Shown here piece by piece: positions 19,720 to 29,517 of a stretch of 64,000 nucleotides of DNA. Source of the DNA: Bradyrhizobium diversitatis (lineage in GTDB: Bacteria; Pseudomonadota; Alphaproteobacteria; Rhizobiales; Xanthobacteraceae); NCBI RefSeq assembly GCF_016031635.1, contig NZ_JACEGD010000043.1, positions 1 through 64,000 on the forward strand. The letters run 5' to 3'. The position numbers and the translations under genes are program-made. The notes beneath the pieces were generated by a model. That model worked only from the letters and a program-made list of their open reading frames with translations. It had not been told where the DNA came from and did not search any database. The stretch's first letter is position 1. The number at the start of each line of letters is the position of its first letter.

Positions 19720-21087
19720 ATGCGGGCCACGATGATCGAAGAGCCGGCACGACAAGTGCCGCTCTATGGCGAATACGAAGTTGTCGTGCTCGGCGGCGGA
19801 CCGGCCGGCATCGTGGCGGCAGCGTCAGCGGCGCGCGCGGGACGGAAGACGCTGCTGATCGAGCGTTACGGCTTCCTCGGCGGCATGGGCACCGCGGCCG
19901 GCGTCACCAATTTCTGCGGCCTGCATGGCAATGTCCATGGCGAGCACCGGCGGCTGGTGCAGGGCATGGCGTCGGATCTGTTGGCGCGGATTGATCGGCT
20001 GAACGGCCTCAACACGCCGCATCTGATCCTCGGCAAGGTCTTCGCGCAGGCCTATGACACCGCCGCGTACAAGATCGCCGCTGACCAGCTTCTCGCCAGT
20101 CACAAGGTGCACATCCTCTTTCATGCGCTCGGTGCCGGCGTCGTGATGGGCGATGACCGCCGCGTTGACGCTCTGCTGGTGGAGACCAAGGGCGGCCGGC
20201 AGGCGGTGCGATCAGAAATCTTCATCGACTGCTCGGGCGATGGCGATCTCGCCGTGTGGGCCGGCGCGCCGTTCGAGATCGGCGACGAGCAGGGGCATCC
20301 GCTCTATCCCTCGATGATGCTCCGCCTCAACGGCATCGATCCCGGGAAGGCGGGCGAGGCCTGGCGGACCATCCCGCAACTGATGGAGAAGGCGCTCGCG
20401 GCCGGCACGCACACATTCCCGCGCAAGAGCGCCATCGTGCGGCCGCAAAAATCCGGCATCGAATGGCGCGTGAACTTTACGCAGGTTGCGCGCGAGGACG
20501 GCCACGCCATCAACGGCATCGAGCCCGACGATCTCACCCGCGGTGAGATCGAGGGCCGCAAGCAGGCGCTCGCCGCGTTCGAATTCCTGCGCAGCACCGT
20601 ACCGGGCTTTGAAAAATCCTACATCGTCGACCTGCCGCCGCAGCTCGGCATCCGCGAGACCCGCCGCATCGAGGGCGGTTATCAGCTCAGCGGCGAGGAC
20701 GTGCTCGGCTGCGCCTCGTTCGAGGATTCGATTGGCGTTAACGGCTGGCCGATCGAGGCCCATGTTCCCGGCGACGTCGTCTTCACATTTCCGCCAATTC
20801 CGGAATCGCGCGGCTACAATGAGCTGCCCTACCGGATGCTGGTGCCCCAGGGCGTCGACAATCTCCTGGTCGCCGGCCGTTGTGCCTCGATGACACATGA
20901 AGGCCAGTCGGCGGCGCGTGTCTCCGGTGCCTGTTTCGTGATGGGCGAGGCTGCCGGTTCCGCCGCCGCGCTGGCGCTCTCCGGAAACCGAATCCCGCGT
21001 GACATCCCCATTGAAAAGCTGCAGGAAACGTTGAAGCAACAGGGCGCCTTCATCGGGCGGGACCAGGCCGTCTCCGAAGGGCTGTAG
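19720..21087 (+). CDS. FAD-dependent oxidoreductase
   Basis: 455 residues. N-terminal FAD-binding VVVLGGGPAGIVAAASAARAG at about 23-43, then ERYGFLGGMGTAAGVTNFCG, typical of the FAD_oxidored family that includes TIGR-type putative thiazole/heterodisulfide-like flavoproteins. A second FAD contact is LLVAGRCASMTHEGQSAARV near the C terminus. Reaction unknown. It is the first gene of a run with an ABC importer 34 bases downstream, so it probably acts on the imported compound. Confidence 0.82.
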   Translation: MRATMIEEPARQVPLYGEYEVVVLGGGPAGIVAAASAARAGRKTLLIERYGFLGGMGTAAGVTNFCGLHGNVHGEHRRLVQGMASDLLARIDRLNGLNTPHLILGKVFAQAYDTAAYKIAADQLLASHKVHILFHALGAGVVMGDDRRVDALLVETKGGRQAVRSEIFIDCSGDGDLAVWAGAPFEIGDEQGHPLYPSMMLRLNGIDPGKAGEAWRTIPQLMEKALAAGTHTFPRKSAIVRPQKSGIEWRVNFTQVAREDGHAINGIEPDDLTRGEIEGRKQALAAFEFLRSTVPGFEKSYIVDLPPQLGIRETRRIEGGYQLSGEDVLGCASFEDSIGVNGWPIEAHVPGDVVFTFPPIPESRGYNELPYRMLVPQGVDNLLVAGRCASMTHEGQSAARVSGACFVMGEAAGSAAALALSGNRIPRDIPIEKLQETLKQQGAFIGRDQAVSEGL

Positions 21088-21121
21088 CGGACTGCAGGAC
21101 AGCGGCGGCGGAGGAAATTGA

Positions 21122-22126
21122 ATGATCGGGATGGCGCGGCTCGCGATAGCGGGCCTGGTGGCGATCATGGCGATGGGCACGGCGCGGGCCGAGGATGTGC
21201 TGAAGGCCAGGATCGGCGTGCTCCGCCTGTCCTCCTCCGCGCCCGTTTTCATCGCGCAGGACAAGGGCTATTTCCGCGACGCCGGCCTGGAGGTCGAGCT
21301 GAAATTCTTCGACGCGGCGCAGCCGATCGCGGTAGCGACGACCTCGGGCGATGTCGATTTCGGCGTCACCGCCTTCACCGCGGGCCTCTACAATCTCGCC
21401 GGCAAGGGCGTGCTGAAGGTGATCGGCGGCATGAGCCGTGAGAAGCCCGGCTATCCCCTGATCGGCTATTTCGCCAGCAACAACGCCTATGCCGCCGGGC
21501 TGAAGACGCCGAAGGACCTCGCCGGCAAGCGCGTGGCGGTAACCCAGGTCGGATCGAGCTTTCACTATTCGCTCGGCCTGCTCGCCGATAAATACGGCTT
21601 CAAGCTCTCTGAGGTGAAGATCGTTCCGCTGCAATCGCTGTCGAATGCGGCGGCTGCGCTGAAGGGCGAGACTGTCGACGCCGCGCTGCTTCCGATCTCC
21701 ACGGCGCGAAAGCTGATGGACGAGGGCGGCGCGAAGTTCCTGGGCTGGGTCGGCGACGAGACGCCGTGGCAGCTGGGGGCGGTGTTCGCCTCGCCGAAGA
21801 CGCTGGCCAGCAAGACGCTGGTGACGAAGCTGCTCGGCGCGCTCGCCAAGGCCGATCGCGAATATCACTATGTCATCCTTGCCGCGATGAAGGACGGTGT
21901 CGCCCCGATCAACGAGCAGACAAAGCCGCTGCTGGAGATCATCGCCAAGTACACCAATTTGCCGGTCGAGCAGGTGGTCGGCAATTGCGCCTATGTCGAT
22001 CCCGACGGCAAGCTGGACGTCAAGAATGTCGACAACCAGATCAAATGGCTCCAGGAGCAGGGCTTTGCCGACAAGGGTTTTGACGTGAATGCGATCATCG
22101 CCAAGGACTATGTGAGGGCGGATTGA
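21122..22126 (+). CDS. ABC transporter substrate-binding protein, NMT1/SsuA type
   Basis: 334 residues with a signal peptide (MIGMARLAIAGLVAIMAM, then GTARAED). Family motifs: PVFIAQDKGYFRDAGLEVEL, VDFGVTAFTAGLYN, LAGKRVAVTQVGSSFHYSL. These periplasmic proteins serve nitrate/sulfonate/taurine and pyrimidine-precursor-type importers; the ligand is not resolvable. First component of the importer completed by the next two genes. Confidence 0.9.
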   Translation: MIGMARLAIAGLVAIMAMGTARAEDVLKARIGVLRLSSSAPVFIAQDKGYFRDAGLEVELKFFDAAQPIAVATTSGDVDFGVTAFTAGLYNLAGKGVLKVIGGMSREKPGYPLIGYFASNNAYAAGLKTPKDLAGKRVAVTQVGSSFHYSLGLLADKYGFKLSEVKIVPLQSLSNAAAALKGETVDAALLPISTARKLMDEGGAKFLGWVGDETPWQLGAVFASPKTLASKTLVTKLLGALAKADREYHYVILAAMKDGVAPINEQTKPLLEIIAKYTNLPVEQVVGNCAYVDPDGKLDVKNVDNQIKWLQEQGFADKGFDVNAIIAKDYVRAD

Positions 22127-22150
22127 TCGATGCGAGCACGTCTCTCTCCC

Positions 22151-22228
22151 CGTCATCCTGAGGTGCGAGCAGCGCAGTGCATCGGCTCGACTTGCGGCGC
22201 GCCGCAAGTCGAGCACCTCAGGATGACG
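22151..22228. repeat. long palindromic repeat inside the ABC operon
   Basis: Outer arms cgtcatcctgaggtgc (22151-22166) and gcacctcaggatgacg (22213-22228) are exact complements. Inside is a perfect 30-bp palindrome at 22185-22214 (arm gctcgacttgcggcg). The RNA would fold into a very stable hairpin between the binding-protein and ATPase genes. Confidence 0.9.
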
Positions 22229-22253
22229 GAGATAGAGTGAGAGGACGCAGCTC

Positions 22254-23027
22254 ATGGACCTGATTGCCAACCACATCTCCCATCGCTTCGGCGATCTCGC
22301 CGTGCTCGACGACGTCTCCTTCACCGTCAGCGCCGGCGAGGTGGTGGCGATCGTGGGGCCATCGGGATGCGGCAAGAGCACGCTGCTGTCGATCCTGGGC
22401 GGCCTCTTGCTGCCGACCTCCGGCGCGGCGGAGCTGCGCGGGGCGCCGCCGGCGGACAGTCTCAATCCGCTGACCTTCGTGTTCCAGGATTTTGCGCTGC
22501 TGCCCTGGGCCACGGTGGAGGAGAACGTCGAATTCCCGCTGCTGCATGCCCAGCTTGGCGCTGCGCAACGCCGTGCGCTGGTCGAGGACGCGCTGCGCCG
22601 CACCGGCCTGACCGATTTCCGCACCACCTATCCAAAGCAGCTCTCCGGCGGCATGCGCCAGCGCGTCGGCATCTCACGCGCGCTTGCGGTGAGACCTGCG
22701 ATCCTGCTGATGGACGAGCCGCTCTCGGCGCTGGATTCGCAGACCCGCGAGCTCCTCATGGAAGACTTTGTCCGCCTGCTCGCCGATGGCGGCATGGGCG
22801 CGGTCTACGTCACCCACAATCTCGAGGAAGCCGCACGGCTTGCCGACCGCATCGTGGTGCTGTCGCGGCGGCCGGGACGCATCCGCGAGGTCGTAACCGT
22901 GCCGATGACGCGCGCGGCCCGCGGCGAAATTGCTGCGCGTGAACGGCTGCTCGCGCTTCAGAACCAGATCTGGTCGCTGATCCGCAACGAGGCGATCGAT
23001 GCCGAGCGCGAGGTCCAGCATGCTTGA
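22254..23027 (+). CDS. ABC transporter ATP-binding protein (NitT/TauT type)
   Basis: 257 residues. Walker A GPSGCGKST near 38, Q-loop FVFQDFALLPW, ABC signature LSGGMRQRVG, Walker B AILLMDEPLSALD and the switch His in VYVTHNLEEA. The cytoplasmic motor of the importer. It overlaps the permease gene by eight bases at 23020-23027 and follows the large palindrome. Confidence 0.93.
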   Translation: MDLIANHISHRFGDLAVLDDVSFTVSAGEVVAIVGPSGCGKSTLLSILGGLLLPTSGAAELRGAPPADSLNPLTFVFQDFALLPWATVEENVEFPLLHAQLGAAQRRALVEDALRRTGLTDFRTTYPKQLSGGMRQRVGISRALAVRPAILLMDEPLSALDSQTRELLMEDFVRLLADGGMGAVYVTHNLEEAARLADRIVVLSRRPGRIREVVTVPMTRAARGEIAARERLLALQNQIWSLIRNEAIDAEREVQHA

Positions 23028-23841
23028 CCGCGCGCCGGCGGAGATTGCGAAGGACACTGCGACGCGCCGCGTCCGCTTCCGCGGCGCGGGCTTCGTGCCG
23101 GACTCGAGCCGCCACGGCGGTTGGATCGCGCTCGCCCTCGTCATCGCGATCTGGCAGGTCGCGGGCAGCGACGGCCTCGTCAATCCGTTGTTTCTGCCGC
23201 CGCCTTCCGCCATCGCCCGCGCGATCTACCAACTCGCGGTGTCGGGCGCGCTCTGGCAGCACGTCTCGGCCTCGCTGCTGCGCATCGGCGTCGGCTGGCT
23301 GCTCGGCACCGCGGCCGGTGTCGCCGTCGGCTTTGCCATCGGCCTGTCGCGGCTGGCGCGTAGCGTCGGCATCACCTTCATCTCGGCGCTGTTCCCGATT
23401 CCCAAGATCGCGCTGTTGCCGCTGTTGATCCTCTGGCTCGGCATCGGCGAAGAGCCGAAGATCGCGACCATTGCGCTCGGCGTCTTCTTCTCGACTGCGA
23501 TCTCGGTCTATAGCGGCGTCGATGCGGTACCGCGCAACCTCATCCGCATGGCGCAGAGCTTCAACGTTCCATTTGCCACCATCGTGCGCAAGGTGATCTG
23601 GCCGGGCGCGCTGCCCGCGATCCTCGCCGGCTTCCGCATCACCGCCTCCGTGGCGCTGCTGCTCGTCGTCAGCGCCGAGATGATCGGCGCGCAATACGGC
23701 ATCGGCGCCTTCGTGCTGCAGGCCGGAAATCTGATGCAGACCGATCAGCTGCTCGCGGGCGTGGTGATCCTGTCGGTGTTCGGGCTCGCAGTCGGCAAGG
23801 TGATCGGCTGGCTGGAGACGCGGCTGTTGCACTGGCGATAG
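23020..23841 (+). CDS. ABC transporter permease (NitT/TauT type)
   Basis: 273 residues from ATG 23020, overlapping the ATPase gene. About six membrane segments, e.g. IALALVIAIWQVAG, LLRIGVGWLLGTAAGVAVGF and VALLLVVSAEMIG; the coupling EAA-like loop is NLIRMAQSFNVPFATIVRKV, then IWPGALPAI. BPD_transp_1 inner-membrane channel component. Last gene of the operon, followed by a palindromic repeat. Confidence 0.92.
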   Translation: MLDRAPAEIAKDTATRRVRFRGAGFVPDSSRHGGWIALALVIAIWQVAGSDGLVNPLFLPPPSAIARAIYQLAVSGALWQHVSASLLRIGVGWLLGTAAGVAVGFAIGLSRLARSVGITFISALFPIPKIALLPLLILWLGIGEEPKIATIALGVFFSTAISVYSGVDAVPRNLIRMAQSFNVPFATIVRKVIWPGALPAILAGFRITASVALLLVVSAEMIGAQYGIGAFVLQAGNLMQTDQLLAGVVILSVFGLAVGKVIGWLETRLLHWR

Positions 23842-24035: not shown

Positions 24036-25076
24036 TCACGCGTTCCCGCGATCTTCCCTGAACAAATCCAGCTTCTGCTGCACGGGCCGGTCCGAGAAGC
24101 TGAACAGCACGGCGTCGTCGTCGGCCTCGTGCGTCACCCAGTGCCAGCTCGGCACCACGAACAGATCGCGCGGGCCCCACTCGAAAACGGCATCGCCGAT
24201 CCGGCTGCAGCCCTTGCCTTCGATCGGGCAGAACACCGTCGCGTCGGTCGCGCGATAGCGCGCGGTCTTGAATCCCCTGGGCAACAGCTGAATGAAGGTG
24301 CCGATGGTCGGCATGGCGAAATCGCCGGTCTCGGGGTTGCTGAACTTCAGCTTGAGCCCGTGACAGGCGTCCCACTCCTGGCTCGCGCGGGCCTTCTCCA
24401 GCGCCTCGCGGGTGTAGGCATAGGGATAGCTGAAGATCGGCGAGGTCTTCGAGCTCCGCTTCAAATCGACCGGCAAGAGGTTGTGGCCGTAGCGCGCAAA
24501 GCTGTCGCCGGCAGGTTTCGTGATCTTCTGCTGGTCTTCCTTCGATCCTTCCGCGAAGGAGCAGTCGAAGAACTGCACCAAGGGGATATCGAGGCCGTCG
24601 AGCCAGAACATCGGCTGGTCGGTCTCGTTGGAATGATCGTGCCAGGTCATGGACGGCGTGATGATGAAATCGCCGGGCTCCATCGCGGTGCGTTCGCCAT
24701 CGACGGCGGTGTGGGCGCCCTTGCCTTCGAGCACGAAGCGCAGCGCGGACTGGCTGTGCCGGTGCGCAGGGGCGACGTCGCCGGGCACCACCATCTGCAC
24801 CCCCGCGTAGAGCGAGGTCGTGATCTTGGATTGGCCGCGCAACCCCGGGTTCTCCAGCACCAGCACGCGCCGCTCGGCTTCCTTGGCGGTGATGAGCTTG
24901 CCGGCCTCCGTCATGTAATCGCGGATGACGTCGAACTTCCAAAGGTGCGGCCGGCAGGCGCTCTTCGGCTCCGGCGTGATCAGGTCGCTCATCACCGTCC
25001 ACAGCGCGGTGAGATTCTCGCCGTCGATCTTCTTGTAGAACGCCTCGCGTTCCGGCGTCTTGGTCACGGCTTCCAT
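24036..25076 (-). CDS. gtdA: gentisate 1,2-dioxygenase
   Basis: 346 residues from ATG 25076. Bicupin with metal-binding His residues in the first cupin (VVPGDVAPAHRHSQSALRFV, then MTWHDHSN) and a second cupin holding FVVPSWHWVTHEADDDAVLF. Length and motifs fit gentisate dioxygenases, which cleave the gentisate ring to maleylpyruvate with Fe(II). Divergent from the maleylpyruvate/maleylacetoacetate isomerase remnant and MarR gene; a near-consensus promoter and a shared dyad precede it. Confidence 0.88.
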   Translation of the reverse strand: MEAVTKTPEREAFYKKIDGENLTALWTVMSDLITPEPKSACRPHLWKFDVIRDYMTEAGKLITAKEAERRVLVLENPGLRGQSKITTSLYAGVQMVVPGDVAPAHRHSQSALRFVLEGKGAHTAVDGERTAMEPGDFIITPSMTWHDHSNETDQPMFWLDGLDIPLVQFFDCSFAEGSKEDQQKITKPAGDSFARYGHNLLPVDLKRSSKTSPIFSYPYAYTREALEKARASQEWDACHGLKLKFSNPETGDFAMPTIGTFIQLLPRGFKTARYRATDATVFCPIEGKGCSRIGDAVFEWGPRDLFVVPSWHWVTHEADDDAVLFSFSDRPVQQKLDLFREDRGNA

Positions 25077-25099
25077 GGTTGCTGCTCCCGATCGTTTGT

Positions 25100-25135
25100 T
25101 GATTGACAGTATACTGACGATCTGGCTAGCGTCAA
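25100..25135 (-). promoter_or_regulatory. gtdA promoter with overlapping dyad operator
   Basis: On the minus strand a -35 TTGACG (25130-25135) is followed after 16 bases by -10 TATACT (25108-25113). The -10 lies inside a dyad (24 bp at 25100-25123, core AGTATACT, flanks GAT/ATC). Twenty-two of the 24 bases recur before the monooxygenase gene at 29494-29517. Overlap of operator and -10 suits repression by the nearby MarR protein. Confidence 0.65.
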
Positions 25136-25157
25136 CGTGACGGATGACATACAAGGT

Positions 25158-25270
25158 CGTCATTCCGGGGCGACGGGACCGCGCAAACGCGCGGCCCGGA
25201 GAGCCCGGAATCCATAACCACGATCGGGAGTATGGATTCCGGGCTCTCGCTGCGCGAGCCCCGGAATGAC
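25158..25270. repeat. cgtcattccgggg-type palindromic repeat
   Basis: Arms cgtcattccggggc and gagccccggaatgac with an inner mirrored pair (gagcccggaatccat / atggattccgggctc). A sister copy is at 62707-62809. It separates the gtdA operator from the isomerase remnant. Confidence 0.85.
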
Positions 25271-25290
25271 AGAAATAACAGGGAGGCCCA

Positions 25291-25807
25291 ATGAAGCTGC
25301 ACGGCTATTTCCGCTCCAGCGCCGCCTATCGGGTGCGGATCGCGCTGAACCTCAAGGGGCTCGGCGCCGAGCATCTGCCGCATCATCTTCGCAAGGGCGA
25401 ACAATGCGCGCCCGCTTATCTGGCCATCAACCCGCAGGGCCTGGTGCCGGCGCTGGAGGATGATGCGGGTACGGTGCTGACCCAATCGGTCGCCATCATC
25501 GAATGGCTCGACGAGACCCACCCCAATCCGCCGCTGCTGCCGAAGGATCCGCTTCGCCGCGCCAGCCTGGGTCAATCGCGAGGGCCTGTCAGCCTGCGAG
25601 ACCCTGATCCGAGACGAGAAGGGGCCGTTCTGCTTCGGAAATGCGCCGACGCTGGCCGATCTCTGCCTCGTACCGCAGCTTACCAATGCGCGCCGCTTCG
25701 GCGTCGACGTCCCCGCCTATCCGCGCCTGCTCGAAGCCGAGGCTGCCGCCAAGGCGCTGCCCGCCTTCGCCGACGCCGCACCGGAGAAGCAGCCCGATGC
25801 CGAGTAA
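25291..25807 (+). pseudogene. maiA: maleylpyruvate/maleylacetoacetate isomerase, internal deletion with frameshift
   Basis: The frame from ATG 25291 opens as a zeta-class glutathione transferase: MKLHGYFRSSAAYRVRIALN with the SSAAYRVRIAL signature, then NPQGLVPALEDD and QSVAIIEWLDE. It leaves the family after about residue 91 (near 25563). From 25565 a second frame gives the family C terminus (AWVNREGLSACETL, GNAPTLADLCLVPQL) to a stop at 25807. About 40 central residues are missing (about 171 of some 212). The enzyme would isomerise maleylpyruvate in the gentisate pathway; as written it is broken. Confidence 0.82.
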
Positions 25808-26309
25808 GCCTGCCGCTCCGATCACCATGGACGCGGTCTATGCCGCGCCGGGCTATCTGTTCCGGCGCATGCAGCAGATCGCGGTCTCGATCTTCATGGA
25901 GGAGTGCAAGGCGTTCGATCTCACCCCGGTGCAATATGCCGCTTTGGTCGCGATCCATACCCATCCCGGCATCGACGCGACGCGGCTGTCGGCGGTGATC
26001 GCCTTCGACCGCTCTACGCTCGGCAGCGTGATCGAGCGGCTTCAAGCCAAGGGCTATATCGAGCGCAAGCCGGCGCCGGAAGACAGGCGGATCAAGTTGC
26101 TCCACCTGACAAAATCGGGCGGCGCGATCCTGCGCGACATCATCCCCGCCGTCGAACGCGCCCAGGCGCGGATGCTGGAGCCGCTGAAGCCCGCCGACCG
26201 CAAGGCGCTGATGGGGCTGTTGGTGCAGCTCGTCGATCTCAACAACGAGGCCTCGCGCGTGCCGCTGCGGGCGGAGGATGCACTGGAGCATCTGGGGAAG
26301 AGCGGCTGA
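25797..26309 (+). CDS. MarR-family transcriptional regulator
   Basis: 170 residues from ATG 25797, overlapping the isomerase remnant by 11 bases; MDAVYAAPG at 25827 is an alternative start. Winged-helix MarR core: LTPVQYAALVAIHTHPGIDA, TRLSAVIAFDRSTLGSVIER and the wing GYIERKPAPEDRRIKLLHLT. The best candidate to bind the shared dyads at 25100 and 29494; likely ligand is an aryl-CoA or aromatic acid. Inference from position and family. Confidence 0.9.
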   Translation: MPSKPAAPITMDAVYAAPGYLFRRMQQIAVSIFMEECKAFDLTPVQYAALVAIHTHPGIDATRLSAVIAFDRSTLGSVIERLQAKGYIERKPAPEDRRIKLLHLTKSGGAILRDIIPAVERAQARMLEPLKPADRKALMGLLVQLVDLNNEASRVPLRAEDALEHLGKSG

Positions 26310-26353
26310 GGGGATGTGAGTGAGCGGGTCTCCGCTCGCGCCTCATTCATCGC

Positions 26354-26402
26354 CGTCGTCCCGGATCGGCGCGCGCTTAAGGCGCGCTTGTCCGGGACGA
26401 CA
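26354..26402. repeat. cgtcgtcccgga palindrome, short form
   Basis: Arms cgtcgtcccggatcggcgcg and cgcgcttgtccgggacgac around a gcttaag centre. It lies just after the MarR gene and inside the 37-bp direct-repeat interval. Confidence 0.8.
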
Positions 26403-26427
26403 GCGAATGTGTGGCGGCGCCGTCGCC

Positions 26428-26527
26428 TCACATCCGCAGCAATGCCTGCCGCTCGATCTTGCCCGTGCCCGTCTTCGGCGGCTCGTCGATGAAGATCACC
26501 TCGCGCGGATATTTGTAGGGAAGCAGC
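26428..26527 (-). pseudogene. 3' remnant of a second aryl-CoA ligase gene
   Basis: Read on the minus strand this encodes the last 32 codons of an ANL ligase (LLPYKYPREVIFIDEPPKTG, then TGKIERQALLRM, stop). It matches the end of the intact ligase at 26732 with four residue changes (ELPKT to EPPKT, KIDRQ to KIERQ, LLRI to LLRM). No ligase sequence lies upstream of 26527, only repeat DNA, so this is a leftover of a tandem paralogue. Confidence 0.85.
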
Positions 26528-26552
26528 TCTCCGCTCGCGCCTCATTCATCGC

Positions 26553-26706
26553 CGTCGTCCCGGACAAGCGGAGCGCAGATCCGGGACCCATTACCACAGG
26601 AAGGAGTTGGGCGCGAGCAGATAACTCCGCGTCCCCGTAACCACGTTCGCCTGTGGCTATGGGTCCCGGATCGGCGCGCGCTTAAGGCGCGCTTGTCCGG
26701 GACGAC
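26553..26706. repeat. composite palindromic repeat, about 154 bp
   Basis: Left unit cgtcgtcccggacaagcg with gatccgggacccattacca; right unit tggctatgggtcccggatc with gcgcgcttgtccgggacgac. Same architecture as at 23855 and 34132. It separates the ligase remnant from the intact ligase 3' end. Confidence 0.85.
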
Positions 26707-26731
26707 ACCGAATGTGGGCAGCATCCTCGCC

Positions 26732-28345
26732 TCAGATCCGCAGCAATGCCTGCCGGTCGATCTTGCCCGTGCCCGTCTTCGGCAACTCGTCGATGAAGAT
26801 CACCTCGCGCGGATATTTGTAGGGCAAGAGCTTGCCCTTCACATAGTCCTGCAGCCTGCGCGTCGCCTCACCCTGGTCGACGGCGCGGTTGTTCATCACC
26901 ACGACTGCCTTCAGCGTCATGCGCCGGTCCGGCAGTTCGGCAGCGAACACCGCGCATTCGCGAATGTCGGGGTGGTCGGCCAGACACAGCTCGACTTCGA
27001 GCGGATAGACCCACTGGCCTGAGATCTTGATGAGATCGTCGGCGCGGCCGCGGAAGAAGTGGAAGCCGTCGGCATCGCGGATGAAGCGGTCGCCGGTGTA
27101 GATCCAGCCGCCCTCGCGAATCGTTTCCGCGGACTTGTCCGGCCGGTTCCAGTACAGCGGCGTGTTGGAATCGCCGCGCACCCACAGGATGCCTTCCTCG
27201 CCGTCGCCGACCTCGTTCCCGTCCTTGTCGCGCAGGGCAACCTCGTAGCCGGGCACGCGCAGGCCGGCGGCGCCGAGCTTCTTCTGCTCGGGCCTGTTGG
27301 AGAGATAGATGTGCAGCACCTCGGTCGAGCCGAGGCCTTCGACGATTTCGAGCCCCGTGAGCGTCTTCCAGCCGTTGAAGACCTCCGCCGAGAGCACCTC
27401 GGCGGCGGAGAGCGCCATGCGCAGCGACGAGAAGTCCGTCCTGTCCGCGCCGTCGGCCTTGGTCAGCGATGTATAAAGCGTCGGCAGGCCGAAGAAGAGC
27501 GTCGGCTTGTATCGCGCGATCGCCGCGAAGATCGACGCAGGCTTGGGTTGGCCCGGCAACAGCAGCGTCGCGGCGCCGGCCGAGAACGGGAAGGTGACGG
27601 AGTTGCCGAAGCCGTAGGCAAAGAAGATCTTCGGCACCGAGAAGCAGATGTCGTCAGGCGTCAGCTTCAGCACGTTCTGCGCAAAGGCGGCATCGCTATA
27701 GGCCATGTCGTGCTGCAGATGCACGATGCCCTTGGGCCTGCCGGTCGAGCCGGAGGAGTACATCCAGAACGCCATCTCGTTGCGATGCGTGTCGGCTTCG
27801 GCGAGATCAGCCGGGAATTGCGCGAGCCAGTCCGCTGCCGCCAGCGCCGCAGGCGCGGCATGCTCGCCCGCTGCCCCATTGACGACGATCAGCGTATGGA
27901 GCGTCGTATCCTTGCACGCCTCCGCGTTGAAGCGCGCCGCGAACTCGGCATCCGCGACCGCGACAGCCGCGCCGGAATCGGCCAGATAGAATTGCAGGAG
28001 GTCCGGCGGCGTCAACGTGTTGATCAGGAGCGGCACGAAGCCGGCCCGCACCGCGCCGAAGAAGGCGGCCGGGTAGGCCGGCGTGTCGTCGAGGAACAGG
28101 AGCACGCGATCGCCGCGCTTCAGGCCAAGCGAGGCAAGACCGTTGCCCCAGCGGCAGGCTTCGCCGCACAGCTCGGCATAGGTCCGCGTGCCTGCCGGGC
28201 CCATGAGCGCGATCTTGTCGCCGCGGCCCTTGCCGAGATTGTCGAACAGCACGCGGCTGGCATTGTAGATTTCAGGAACGGCAAAGCCGATTTCGCGTGC
28301 GCCCGGGCTGTCCGCGGGCACCTGGTCGCGGATCTCGTCGCTCAT
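26732..28345 (-). CDS. benzoate-CoA ligase family protein (aryl-CoA ligase)
   Basis: 537 residues from ATG 28345; the longer open frame upstream overlaps the monooxygenase and is ignored. ANL motifs: MYSSGSTGRPKGIVH, EGLGSTEVLHIYLSN, GWIYTGDRFIRDADG, GRADDLIKISGQWVYPLEVE and catalytic Lys in PKTGTGKIDR. The EGLGSTEVLH and GQWVYP motifs are typical of benzoate/4-hydroxybenzoate-CoA ligases. It overlaps the monooxygenase stop by four bases. In this locus salicylate, 3-hydroxybenzoate or 2-aminobenzoate are plausible substrates. Confidence 0.88.
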   Translation of the reverse strand: MSDEIRDQVPADSPGAREIGFAVPEIYNASRVLFDNLGKGRGDKIALMGPAGTRTYAELCGEACRWGNGLASLGLKRGDRVLLFLDDTPAYPAAFFGAVRAGFVPLLINTLTPPDLLQFYLADSGAAVAVADAEFAARFNAEACKDTTLHTLIVVNGAAGEHAAPAALAAADWLAQFPADLAEADTHRNEMAFWMYSSGSTGRPKGIVHLQHDMAYSDAAFAQNVLKLTPDDICFSVPKIFFAYGFGNSVTFPFSAGAATLLLPGQPKPASIFAAIARYKPTLFFGLPTLYTSLTKADGADRTDFSSLRMALSAAEVLSAEVFNGWKTLTGLEIVEGLGSTEVLHIYLSNRPEQKKLGAAGLRVPGYEVALRDKDGNEVGDGEEGILWVRGDSNTPLYWNRPDKSAETIREGGWIYTGDRFIRDADGFHFFRGRADDLIKISGQWVYPLEVELCLADHPDIRECAVFAAELPDRRMTLKAVVVMNNRAVDQGEATRRLQDYVKGKLLPYKYPREVIFIDELPKTGTGKIDRQALLRI

Positions 28346-29481
28346 GCCGCATCCCCGCCGTTCTTGGCCGCCTCGTAGCGGGCCATGAAGGCCGGCGACA
28401 TCGCGCGCAGCCGCGAATCGTCGATGCGGCCGGAGCGGGTGATGTAGCTGTAGGCGAAGTCCATCAGGGGAAGCTTCATGTGTTCGGCGAAGTGCTCGTA
28501 CCAGAACGCGCTCGTGCGCGCGGCATCGACGAGCTTCTGCACGATGGGCTTGCGAACGGCCTGATAGCGATGCAGCGCGGTCGCAAGATGCGCATCCGAC
28601 TCCAGCGCCTTGACCAGCGCGATCGCGTCCTCGATCGCGAGCCGCGTGCCCGAGCCGATCGAGAAATGTGCCGAATGCAGGGCGTCGCCGAGCAGCACCA
28701 TGTTCTTGAACGACCAGTGCTCGTTCCAGACCCAGGGAAAGTTGCGCCAGACCGATTTGTTGGAGACGAGGCAGTGGCCGCCAAGCGTGTCGGCGAAGAC
28801 CTCCTCGCAGACACCCTTGGACTGCTCGACGTCCTTGTAGGCGAAGCCATAGGCCTGCCAGGTTGCGTGATCGCATTCGACCAGGAACGTGCTCATGCCC
28901 GGCGAATAGCGGTAGTGATGGGCGTTGAAGGCACCGCGGTCGGTCTTCACGAAGGTCTGCGACAGCGTGTCGAAGCGTTTCGAGGTGCCGTACCAGACGA
29001 ACTTGTTGGAGGAGTAGGACAGCGACGTCCCGAAATCGCCTTCGAAGGCGCGGCGGACCAGCGAGTTCAGGCCATCAGCGGCGACGATCAGATCGTGGCC
29101 GTTGAGCTGGTCGATGCCCTGGATCGGCGTGTCGAAGCGCGGCGTGGCGCCGACATCGAGCGCACGCTGCTGCAGGAACCTGAGCAGCTCGAGGCGCCCG
29201 ATCGAGGAGAAGCCGACCCCGTCGATGGCGACGCTGTCGCCGTGCAGGTTCAGCGTGATGTTCTCCCAGCTCTCCATATGCGGGGCGATCGCATCGACCG
29301 TCTCGGGGTCGTCGGCTCGCAGGAATTCCAGCGCCTGGTCGGAGAACACGACGCCAAAGCCCCAGGTCGCGTCGGCCGGGTTCTGTTCGAACAGGTCGAC
29401 CTGATCCTCGGGATGACGCTTGTTCCAAAGATAGGCGAAGTAGAGCCCACCGGGCCCCCCGCCAATCACGGCGATCCGCAA
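28342..29481 (-). CDS. FAD monooxygenase, salicylyl-CoA 5-hydroxylase / 2-aminobenzoyl-CoA monooxygenase type
   Basis: 379 residues from a TTG at 29481 with GGGAGG six bases upstream. FAD motif RIAVIGGGPGGLYFAYLWNK, then WGFGVVFSDQALEFL, GFSSIGRLELLRFLQ, the DG motif LIVAADGLNSLVRR and the GD motif MVLLGDALHSAHFSIGSG. The VVFSDQALEF and GFSSIGR segments are characteristic of flavin hydroxylases that act on CoA-activated aromatics (SdgC-like) rather than on free salicylate. Coupled to the aryl-CoA ligase; product gentisyl-CoA would hydrolyse to gentisate for gtdA. The substrate call is family inference. Confidence 0.8.
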   Translation of the reverse strand: MRIAVIGGGPGGLYFAYLWNKRHPEDQVDLFEQNPADATWGFGVVFSDQALEFLRADDPETVDAIAPHMESWENITLNLHGDSVAIDGVGFSSIGRLELLRFLQQRALDVGATPRFDTPIQGIDQLNGHDLIVAADGLNSLVRRAFEGDFGTSLSYSSNKFVWYGTSKRFDTLSQTFVKTDRGAFNAHHYRYSPGMSTFLVECDHATWQAYGFAYKDVEQSKGVCEEVFADTLGGHCLVSNKSVWRNFPWVWNEHWSFKNMVLLGDALHSAHFSIGSGTRLAIEDAIALVKALESDAHLATALHRYQAVRKPIVQKLVDAARTSAFWYEHFAEHMKLPLMDFAYSYITRSGRIDDSRLRAMSPAFMARYEAAKNGGDAA

Positions 29482-29493
29482 CGTCTGCCTCCC

Positions 29494-29517
29494 TGATTGA
29501 CAGTATACTTACTATCT
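29494..29517 (-). promoter_or_regulatory. dyad operator shared with gtdA
   Basis: tgattgacagtatact plus tactatct; 22 of 24 bases equal the gtdA site at 25100-25123, in the same orientation relative to the gene. A -10 TATACT is again inside the dyad (29502-29507), with a weak -35 (TTAGTC) 17 bases upstream. It lies 13 bases before the TTG start of the monooxygenase. Confidence 0.65.

Follow-up and report, generated by a model that had tools for sequence, protein, structure and literature searches.

A gentisate locus of Bradyrhizobium diversitatis that probably degrades salicylate through CoA thioesters

The window analyzed here is a 64,000-nucleotide stretch of the Bradyrhizobium diversitatis genome (contig NZ_JACEGD010000043.1), in which a locus at positions 24,036 to 29,517 combines a gentisate 1,2-dioxygenase and a MarR-family regulator with an aryl-coenzyme A (CoA) ligase and a flavin adenine dinucleotide (FAD) monooxygenase. 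Our comparative analyses make it probable that this locus serves to break down a hydroxybenzoate, with salicylate the most likely one, by way of CoA thioesters, with the help of a thioesterase encoded elsewhere and under repression by the MarR protein; the block is a real and widespread Bradyrhizobium variant of an already known pathway. In the proposed scheme, the ligase would convert salicylate to salicylyl-CoA, the monooxygenase (hereafter the hydroxylase) would hydroxylate this ester at C5 to gentisyl-CoA, a thioesterase from outside the locus would release gentisate, and the dioxygenase would open the gentisate ring to give maleylpyruvate. In this strain, genes outside the locus would have to supply the enzymes for the subsequent isomerisation and hydrolysis of maleylpyruvate. 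The hydroxylase-ligase unit as well as the dioxygenase and isomerase-MarR genes would be kept repressed by the MarR protein, acting at a palindrome common to them, as long as neither the substrate nor a CoA intermediate is present. The sequences show directly the gene content and synteny, the family placement, the conserved operator and the patterns of fusion and loss; salicylate as the substrate, C5 as the site of hydroxylation, and the binding and effector of the MarR protein are inferences from these. Salicylate is favoured because the relatives of these enzymes are annotated for salicylyl-CoA. The features of the locus are as follows.

24036-25076, minus strand: gentisate 1,2-dioxygenase (TIGR02272), 346 amino acids from the likelier start; the open reading frame opens at 25163
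25103-25120, no strand: predicted palindromic operator in the gap between the dioxygenase and isomerase-MarR genes, 2 mismatches to TTGACAGTATACTGTCAA
25291-25808, plus strand: maleylacetoacetate/maleylpyruvate isomerase of the zeta glutathione S-transferase type, broken; N-terminal part 118.7 bits to TIGR01262
25827-26309, plus strand: MarR-family regulator, proposed repressor of both units; 51.1 bits to PF12802 and 48.6 bits to PF01047, both above cut-off
26732-28345, minus strand: AMP-forming aryl-CoA ligase, CehG-like, proposed salicylyl-CoA ligase (TIGR02262), 537 amino acids
28342-29481, minus strand: single-domain FAD monooxygenase, CehH-like, proposed salicylyl-CoA 5-hydroxylase (PRK08255), 379 amino acids, TTG start
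29497-29514, no strand: predicted palindromic operator, 15 bp upstream of the hydroxylase gene, 3 mismatches to TTGACAGTATACTGTCAA

Family placement of the hydroxylase and the nearest known systems

Open reading frames and family scores confirmed the four genes named in an initial annotation of the window (ligase, FAD monooxygenase, gentisate dioxygenase and MarR regulator), and these scores, together with the conservation of the block, rule out a chance assembly or misread frames. The isomerase remnant at 25291-25808 comes in addition to the genes of the initial annotation. The best match of the hydroxylase was PRK08255, with 392.7 bits over model positions 1-382 of 768; this score lies below the cut-off of 1078, as the model is bifunctional and the match covers just its first half. 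Scores to free-acid enzymes were far lower, at 42.2 bits to 3-hydroxybenzoate 6-monooxygenase (cut-off 459) and 32.5 bits to salicylate 1-monooxygenase, which supports a hydroxylase of CoA esters rather than of free acids. The sequence and alignment contain GGGPGG, ADGLNS and LLGDALH, corresponding to the GxGxxG, DG and GD motifs that we take to be marks of class A flavin monooxygenases. As most flavin hydroxylases of this superfamily use free acids, the enzyme might act on a free acid while the adjoining ligase serves another pathway; however, the low scores to free-acid models, together with the hydroxylase-ligase fusions and a ligase loss confined to genomes with a substitute (see below), disfavour this explanation, and we consider it very unlikely.

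The nearest named relatives of the hydroxylase and the ligase were the annotated cehH (salicylyl-CoA hydroxylase) and cehG (salicylyl-CoA ligase) products on plasmids of Agrobacterium tumefaciens Sta004 and Salipiger abyssi, and in A. tumefaciens Sta004 the adjoining thioesterase is annotated as cehI, gentisyl-CoA thioesterase. The hydroxylase is 53-54% identical to annotated CehH and 64% identical to an A. vitis cluster protein. In a tree of 55 rows, a 38-row bipartition (support 98/94) unites the window protein with the CehH-type proteins, the window subclade being distinct from annotated CehH, while the bifunctional, Sdg-like and Streptomyces enzymes form a separate 12-row group (100/99). 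The rows did not include 3HB6H, NagG or the Streptomyces SdgC sequence, and roots were placed at the midpoint for drawing only; a free-standing FAD monooxygenase of the same genome, a distant outgroup in the first tree, disturbed the root, and the 55-row tree was built without it. The motifs VVFSDQALEF and GFSSIGR, which the initial annotation had matched to hydroxylases of salicylyl-CoA and 2-aminobenzoyl-CoA, are both present, and the alignment of relatives places them nearer the CehH type: among 15 of the 55 aligned rows, those of the CehH type carry GFGVVFS followed by [DEA][QR]A[LM], plus GF[STA][SA][IV]GR, whereas the Sdg-like and bifunctional ones carry GFGVVFSD[AE]TL, with SR or HR replacing the GR of the second motif.

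Because the window hydroxylase and ligase fall with annotated CehH and CehG, the CehG/CehH/CehI route of Rhizobium sp. X9, a CoA-mediated salicylate route (Zhou et al. 2021, Mol Microbiol 116:783), is the nearest known system. In both cases, a ligase and a single-domain hydroxylase of the same clades are adjacent and in the same order, with a dioxygenase and an isomerase nearby; the annotated cehG, cehH, cehI clusters also carry dioxygenase, FAHD and isomerase genes. In contrast, the Bradyrhizobium loci are without linked CehI, FAHD and IclR genes and have the MarR gene and the shared palindrome instead; the window dioxygenase is just 36% identical to that of locus L159; and an ATP-binding cassette (ABC) transporter lies near the window locus, whereas tripartite ATP-independent periplasmic (TRAP) transporter genes lie near the Ceh clusters. 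The CoA-mediated salicylate pathway was already known, and the Bradyrhizobium form is a variant of it.

The initial annotation had taken as its model the Sdg salicylate route of Streptomyces, reportedly described by Ishiyama and co-workers in 2004, which is said to run from a CoA ester through 5-hydroxylation to gentisate. This logic is retained in our scheme, but CehG/CehH/CehI are closer than the Sdg and 2-aminobenzoyl-CoA enzymes, which lie on another branch of the tree. The actinobacterial loci L184 and L194, judged Sdg-like by gene content, differ in having longer hydroxylases (536 and 524 amino acids) that are 38-39% identical to the window enzyme and group with the bifunctional enzymes; they also have a PaaX regulator and one more CoA ligase, of the ADP-forming type. 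Similarly, the 2-aminobenzoyl-CoA monooxygenase/reductase (PRK08255 type) has a homologous flavin half acting on an aryl-CoA, but it is a bifunctional protein of about 780 amino acids, whereas the window enzyme, with 379, has no second half and shares about 38-42% identity with it. The direct routes, through 3-hydroxybenzoate 6-monooxygenase or through salicylate 5-hydroxylase (NagGH, a multicomponent Rieske enzyme), also yield gentisate but involve no CoA ester. The BH1999 cluster of Bacillus halodurans resembles the window locus in combining gentisate genes with a gentisyl-CoA intermediate (PMC516016); it differs in that a gentisyl-CoA thioesterase is present there, while the window locus is without one.

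Coupling of the ligase to the hydroxylase and the choice of substrate

The ligase scored 486.5 bits to the benzoate-CoA ligase family TIGR02262 (cut-off 375.25) and is 55% identical to CehG and 66% identical to the A. vitis ligase. In the ligase tree, which leaves out L181, L189, L191, L195 and L200, it falls in a 22-row clade (100/99) with the CehG types, apart from the box-linked ligases and those neighbouring bifunctional enzymes. Its ATG overlaps the stop codon of the hydroxylase gene. In addition, hydroxylase and ligase are fused in one frame of 905-916 amino acids on plasmids of Nitratireductor, Sinorhizobium sojae, Rhizobium leguminosarum and Pseudosulfitobacter (L163:7983-10733; L201:7001 onwards; L226:5998-8727; L227:5983-8727).

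Named genomes were scanned with the hydroxylase as query, and the best 80 of 126 confirmed relatives were kept as loci. Four of these have lost the ligase (L112, L114, L131 and L133); L115 also lacks it but has just 1.6 kb of downstream sequence and cannot be judged. All four ligase-less genomes carry another ligase at 62-63% identity, whereas in each of two control genomes, where the locus is intact, the next ligase after its own reaches just 41-42%. In every case (4/4, against 0/2 controls), the substitute lies within a second cluster of the CehG/H/I type (L046 in the genome of L112; L228, L229 and L230 in the other three), comprising a hydroxylase, a CehI-type thioesterase, an IclR regulator, a dioxygenase and an FAHD gene. 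The fusion in four plasmids and the loss of the ligase where a substitute exists indicate that the two enzymes work in series, and, with the CehH/CehG grouping, they support the reading through CoA thioesters. Neither outcome that the initial annotation had held contrary to this reading, a hydroxylase clustering with free-acid enzymes or a ligase confined to substrates that cannot lead to gentisate, is seen in the sequence: the hydroxylase scores far better to the CoA-ester model than to free-acid models, and the ligase groups with annotated CehG.

The same enzymes might instead act on 3-hydroxybenzoate, with 3-hydroxybenzoyl-CoA hydroxylated at C6, para to the hydroxyl, to give gentisyl-CoA. 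Such para-hydroxylation is chemically equivalent, and the ligase reaches 368.9 bits to the 3-hydroxybenzoate-CoA ligase HbdA, although this is far below the cut-off of 1000. Moreover, the genome holds no 3-hydroxybenzoate 6-monooxygenase above cut-off (best 327.8 bits against 459), and therefore no direct route would compete. However, the annotated relatives carry salicylyl-CoA names, and the sub-threshold 3-hydroxybenzoate monooxygenase homologue on contig C47 could serve a direct route, so that we regard 3-hydroxybenzoate as a rather unlikely substrate. An anthranilate route would need hydroxylation of 2-aminobenzoyl-CoA and, at a later stage, removal of the amino group from the product on the way to gentisate. 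The distant relationship of the hydroxylase to 2-aminobenzoyl-CoA monooxygenase/reductase (39%) is in keeping with this, but the window enzyme has no reductase half, and anthranilate is highly improbable because a separate bifunctional enzyme, above the model cut-off (1133.4 bits), occurs with its own ligase of that type on contig 40 of the same genome (L052, G000:C40:183000-202500). Finally, hydroxylation of 4-hydroxybenzoyl-CoA at C1, accompanied by a shift of the thioester group, might give gentisyl-CoA, as in the NIH-shift route of Brevibacillus; the gene set and the end product would be the same, but the annotated relatives point to salicylate, and this route seems extremely unlikely.

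Conservation in Bradyrhizobium and the shared palindrome

By title, the 80 loci comprise 78 from Bradyrhizobium, one from a Bradyrhizobiaceae metagenome-assembled genome and one labelled Frankia. The ligase gene was seen in 75 of them, as were the MarR, isomerase and dioxygenase genes (75/80 each); among the 72 loci whose sequence extends 5.5 kb or more beyond the hydroxylase gene on the downstream side, the ligase was present in 69, and the other three genes in all 72. In a family-wide sample, 136 of 149 genomes gave some hydroxylase match. Among the matches listed, at least 31 places were 52-100% identical over nearly the full query, in frames of 377-455 amino acids, and most of the next places (36-43%) lay in frames of about 790 amino acids, which represent the bifunctional form. 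The initial annotation had described the route as unusual; it is not rare, as all six other genomes of the same genus in this sample carry the hydroxylase at 77% identity or more. A literature search, in which subscription journals were thinly covered, yielded no title on this Bradyrhizobium locus among the matches listed.

Plants use salicylate as a defence hormone, and among the members of Bradyrhizobium are symbionts of root nodules, for example of soybean. A widespread CoA route, if true, would thus give Bradyrhizobium a defined means to remove salicylate.

Locus L142 (JAUEPE010000018.1), the one titled Frankia sp. RB7, carries the Bradyrhizobium block with a hydroxylase 92% identical to that of the window and is probably mislabelled or contaminated.

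A palindrome close to TTGACAGTATACTGTCAA precedes the starts of both the hydroxylase gene (by 15 bp) and the dioxygenase gene (by 26 bp). For the latter gene, 25076 is a likelier start than 25163 because the operator sits in the upstream extension and the orthologue in L036 begins at the equivalent of 25076. With no more than 4 mismatches, the palindrome was found before the hydroxylase gene in 77 of 80 loci and before the dioxygenase gene in 75 of 75; the three misses (L115, L131 and L133) have 5-6 mismatches, and L131 and L133 are also without the ligase. A wider set, including other genera and the duplicates L033/L080 and L035/L112, gave 86 of 98 hydroxylase regions and 83 of 84 dioxygenase regions with up to 5 mismatches. 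In the strain's own genome (8.45 Mb in 133 contigs, the window lying on contig 71, of 75,738 bp), three places are within 3 mismatches, two of them in this locus, and a backward control gave none.

Outside Bradyrhizobium, the hydroxylase site of the IclR-carrying loci of other genera (L037, L040, L041, L042, L044 and L045), as well as that of the second cluster L046, shows 6-9 mismatches; in L043 there are 4, and the left half differs. Both regulators occur in L044, where the site precedes the dioxygenase gene (3 mismatches) but not the hydroxylase gene (8). Presumably, the MarR protein binds the shared palindrome ahead of both units, and we read these patterns as suggesting that, in Bradyrhizobium, the MarR regulon has taken over the hydroxylase-ligase unit. 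The operator did not lead to the missing thioesterase, as the palindrome at the sole other genomic site, G000:C36:45731, has 3 mismatches and differs in its centre.

Release of CoA and the lower pathway

Several observations weigh against the proposed scheme. The cehH and cehG names come from automatic annotation, and the Rhizobium X9 proteins themselves were not among the compared sequences; no X9 record was found in the best 25 of 254 records matched by an annotated CehH query. Members of the CehH family also occur beside benzoyl-CoA epoxidase or housekeeping genes, some without a linked dioxygenase, so that family membership alone does not fix the reaction, and the hydroxylases of L037, L040, L047 and L048 lie within about 5 kb of a bifunctional-type paralogue. 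Furthermore, genes like CehI, FAHD and IclR are absent from all 80 loci within the sequenced flanks examined, and a 116-bp deletion, evident from comparison with L033, L034 and L068, has broken the isomerase gene here.

The most evident gap in the pathway is the enzyme of CoA release. The initial annotation's scheme requires removal of CoA, but the locus has no recognisable thioesterase: none of the 80 loci has a linked CehI gene, and in 74 of them the sequence reaches 3 kb or more upstream of the hydroxylase gene, the side on which CehI lies elsewhere. In the strain's own genome, CehI homologues occur only on contigs C2 (C2:152593, 36%) and C112 (23%), both unlinked to the locus; PF13279 gave nine matches, none of them on the window's contig, with other thioesterase families not searched. 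The best CehI homologue is 31-36% identical in 11 Bradyrhizobium genomes, while G064, G043, G095 and G114 carry one at 52-56% beside a hydroxylase gene, and G112 has only an unlinked one at 31%. Orthologues of C2:152593, at 78-98%, were found in all 11 loci checked (10 Bradyrhizobium genomes and G112). Low identity to CehI does not rule out the function, because the CehI types of different clusters are themselves only about 35% identical; the thioesterase tree, from which rows L224 and L225 were left out, is weakly supported. The C2:152593 gene adjoins a PRK12582-like acyl-CoA synthetase (752 bits, cut-off 777), an enoyl-CoA hydratase and a short-chain dehydrogenase/reductase gene, a neighbourhood suggestive of a hydroxycinnamate-type cluster, in which one would expect to find an aryl-CoA thioesterase. 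This hot-dog thioesterase is the best candidate for CoA removal.

In other loci, the place of the release enzyme may be held by an alpha/beta hydrolase, as in L227, or by an ADP-forming-type CoA ligase, as in L199, L184 and L194, although the plasmid gene tables there are incomplete. The CoA-release slot looks exchangeable across the family and may hold a hot-dog CehI, an alpha/beta hydrolase, an ADP-forming CoA ligase or nothing linked. The locus also illustrates how a hydroxylase-ligase module is able to move between regulators and release enzymes. For Bradyrhizobium, we tentatively put forward, with slightly less than even confidence, that an ancestral CehI and IclR were lost, that the gain of an operator brought the hydroxylase-ligase unit into the gentisate MarR regulon, and that gentisyl-CoA is hydrolysed by C2:152593, as an aryl-CoA thioesterase belonging to a different aromatic pathway, or by a non-homologous enzyme.

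The dioxygenase scored 628.5 bits to TIGR02272, gentisate 1,2-dioxygenase (cut-off 442.1), and in the alignment it keeps the equivalents of R83, Q108, R127, H162 and D174, with Tyr at 104. Roles of such residues in binding the carboxylate and the 5-hydroxyl of gentisate are given in section 3.2 of PMC10306065. As these residues are kept, CoA should leave before the ring is opened, and action of the dioxygenase directly on gentisyl-CoA is unlikely; a salicylate or 5-nitrosalicylate dioxygenase was also rejected, since positions 104 (Tyr) and 174 (Asp) are as in ordinary gentisate dioxygenases.

The broken isomerase appears as two tblastn pieces in different frames, and the isomerase-MarR spacing is 258 bp here, against 368-428 bp in 75 of 75 loci, including the 98-99% identical relative L068; the deletion may be a real loss or an assembly fault. 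The next best isomerase of the genome is 31% identical, and the nearest FAHD, at C40:78340, is 57% identical. With the local isomerase broken and FAHD unlinked, the lower pathway needs help from outside the locus.

The following genes converge on the locus beside the dioxygenase gene, as identified by family search.

19720-21087, plus strand: FAD oxidoreductase
21122-22126, 22254-23027 and 22999-23841, plus strand: ABC transporter of the NMT1/SsuA type

Their place beside the dioxygenase is kept in 68-72 of the 80 loci, and the palindrome search gave no operator copy at these genes (19720-23841). The transporter possibly serves the uptake of aromatic acids, its tie to the pathway being unproven. 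Downstream of the ligase gene lies a second copy of its 3' end, the two forming a 116-nucleotide direct repeat (26717-26832 and 26413-26528, 91%), which adjoins a 54-nucleotide palindromic repeat pair (98%).

CehH-type hydroxylases were also observed in other surroundings. Those of L047, L048 and L055 lie in box clusters, with boxA, boxB (L055) and boxC (L048) identified by model, and might speculatively be involved in the repair of hydroxybenzoyl-CoA arising from the epoxide. Those of L050, L051, L053, L056, L057, L058, L059 and L060 have no linked ligase and adjoin conserved genes, such as those for a phosphohexomutase, the HrpB helicase and prephenate dehydratase. On a Variovorax plasmid (L200:141-9747), the hydroxylase gene stands among beta-oxidation genes together with gentisate dioxygenase, FAHD and thioesterase genes, and the salicylyl-CoA there might come from 2-hydroxyphenylpropanoid side chains.

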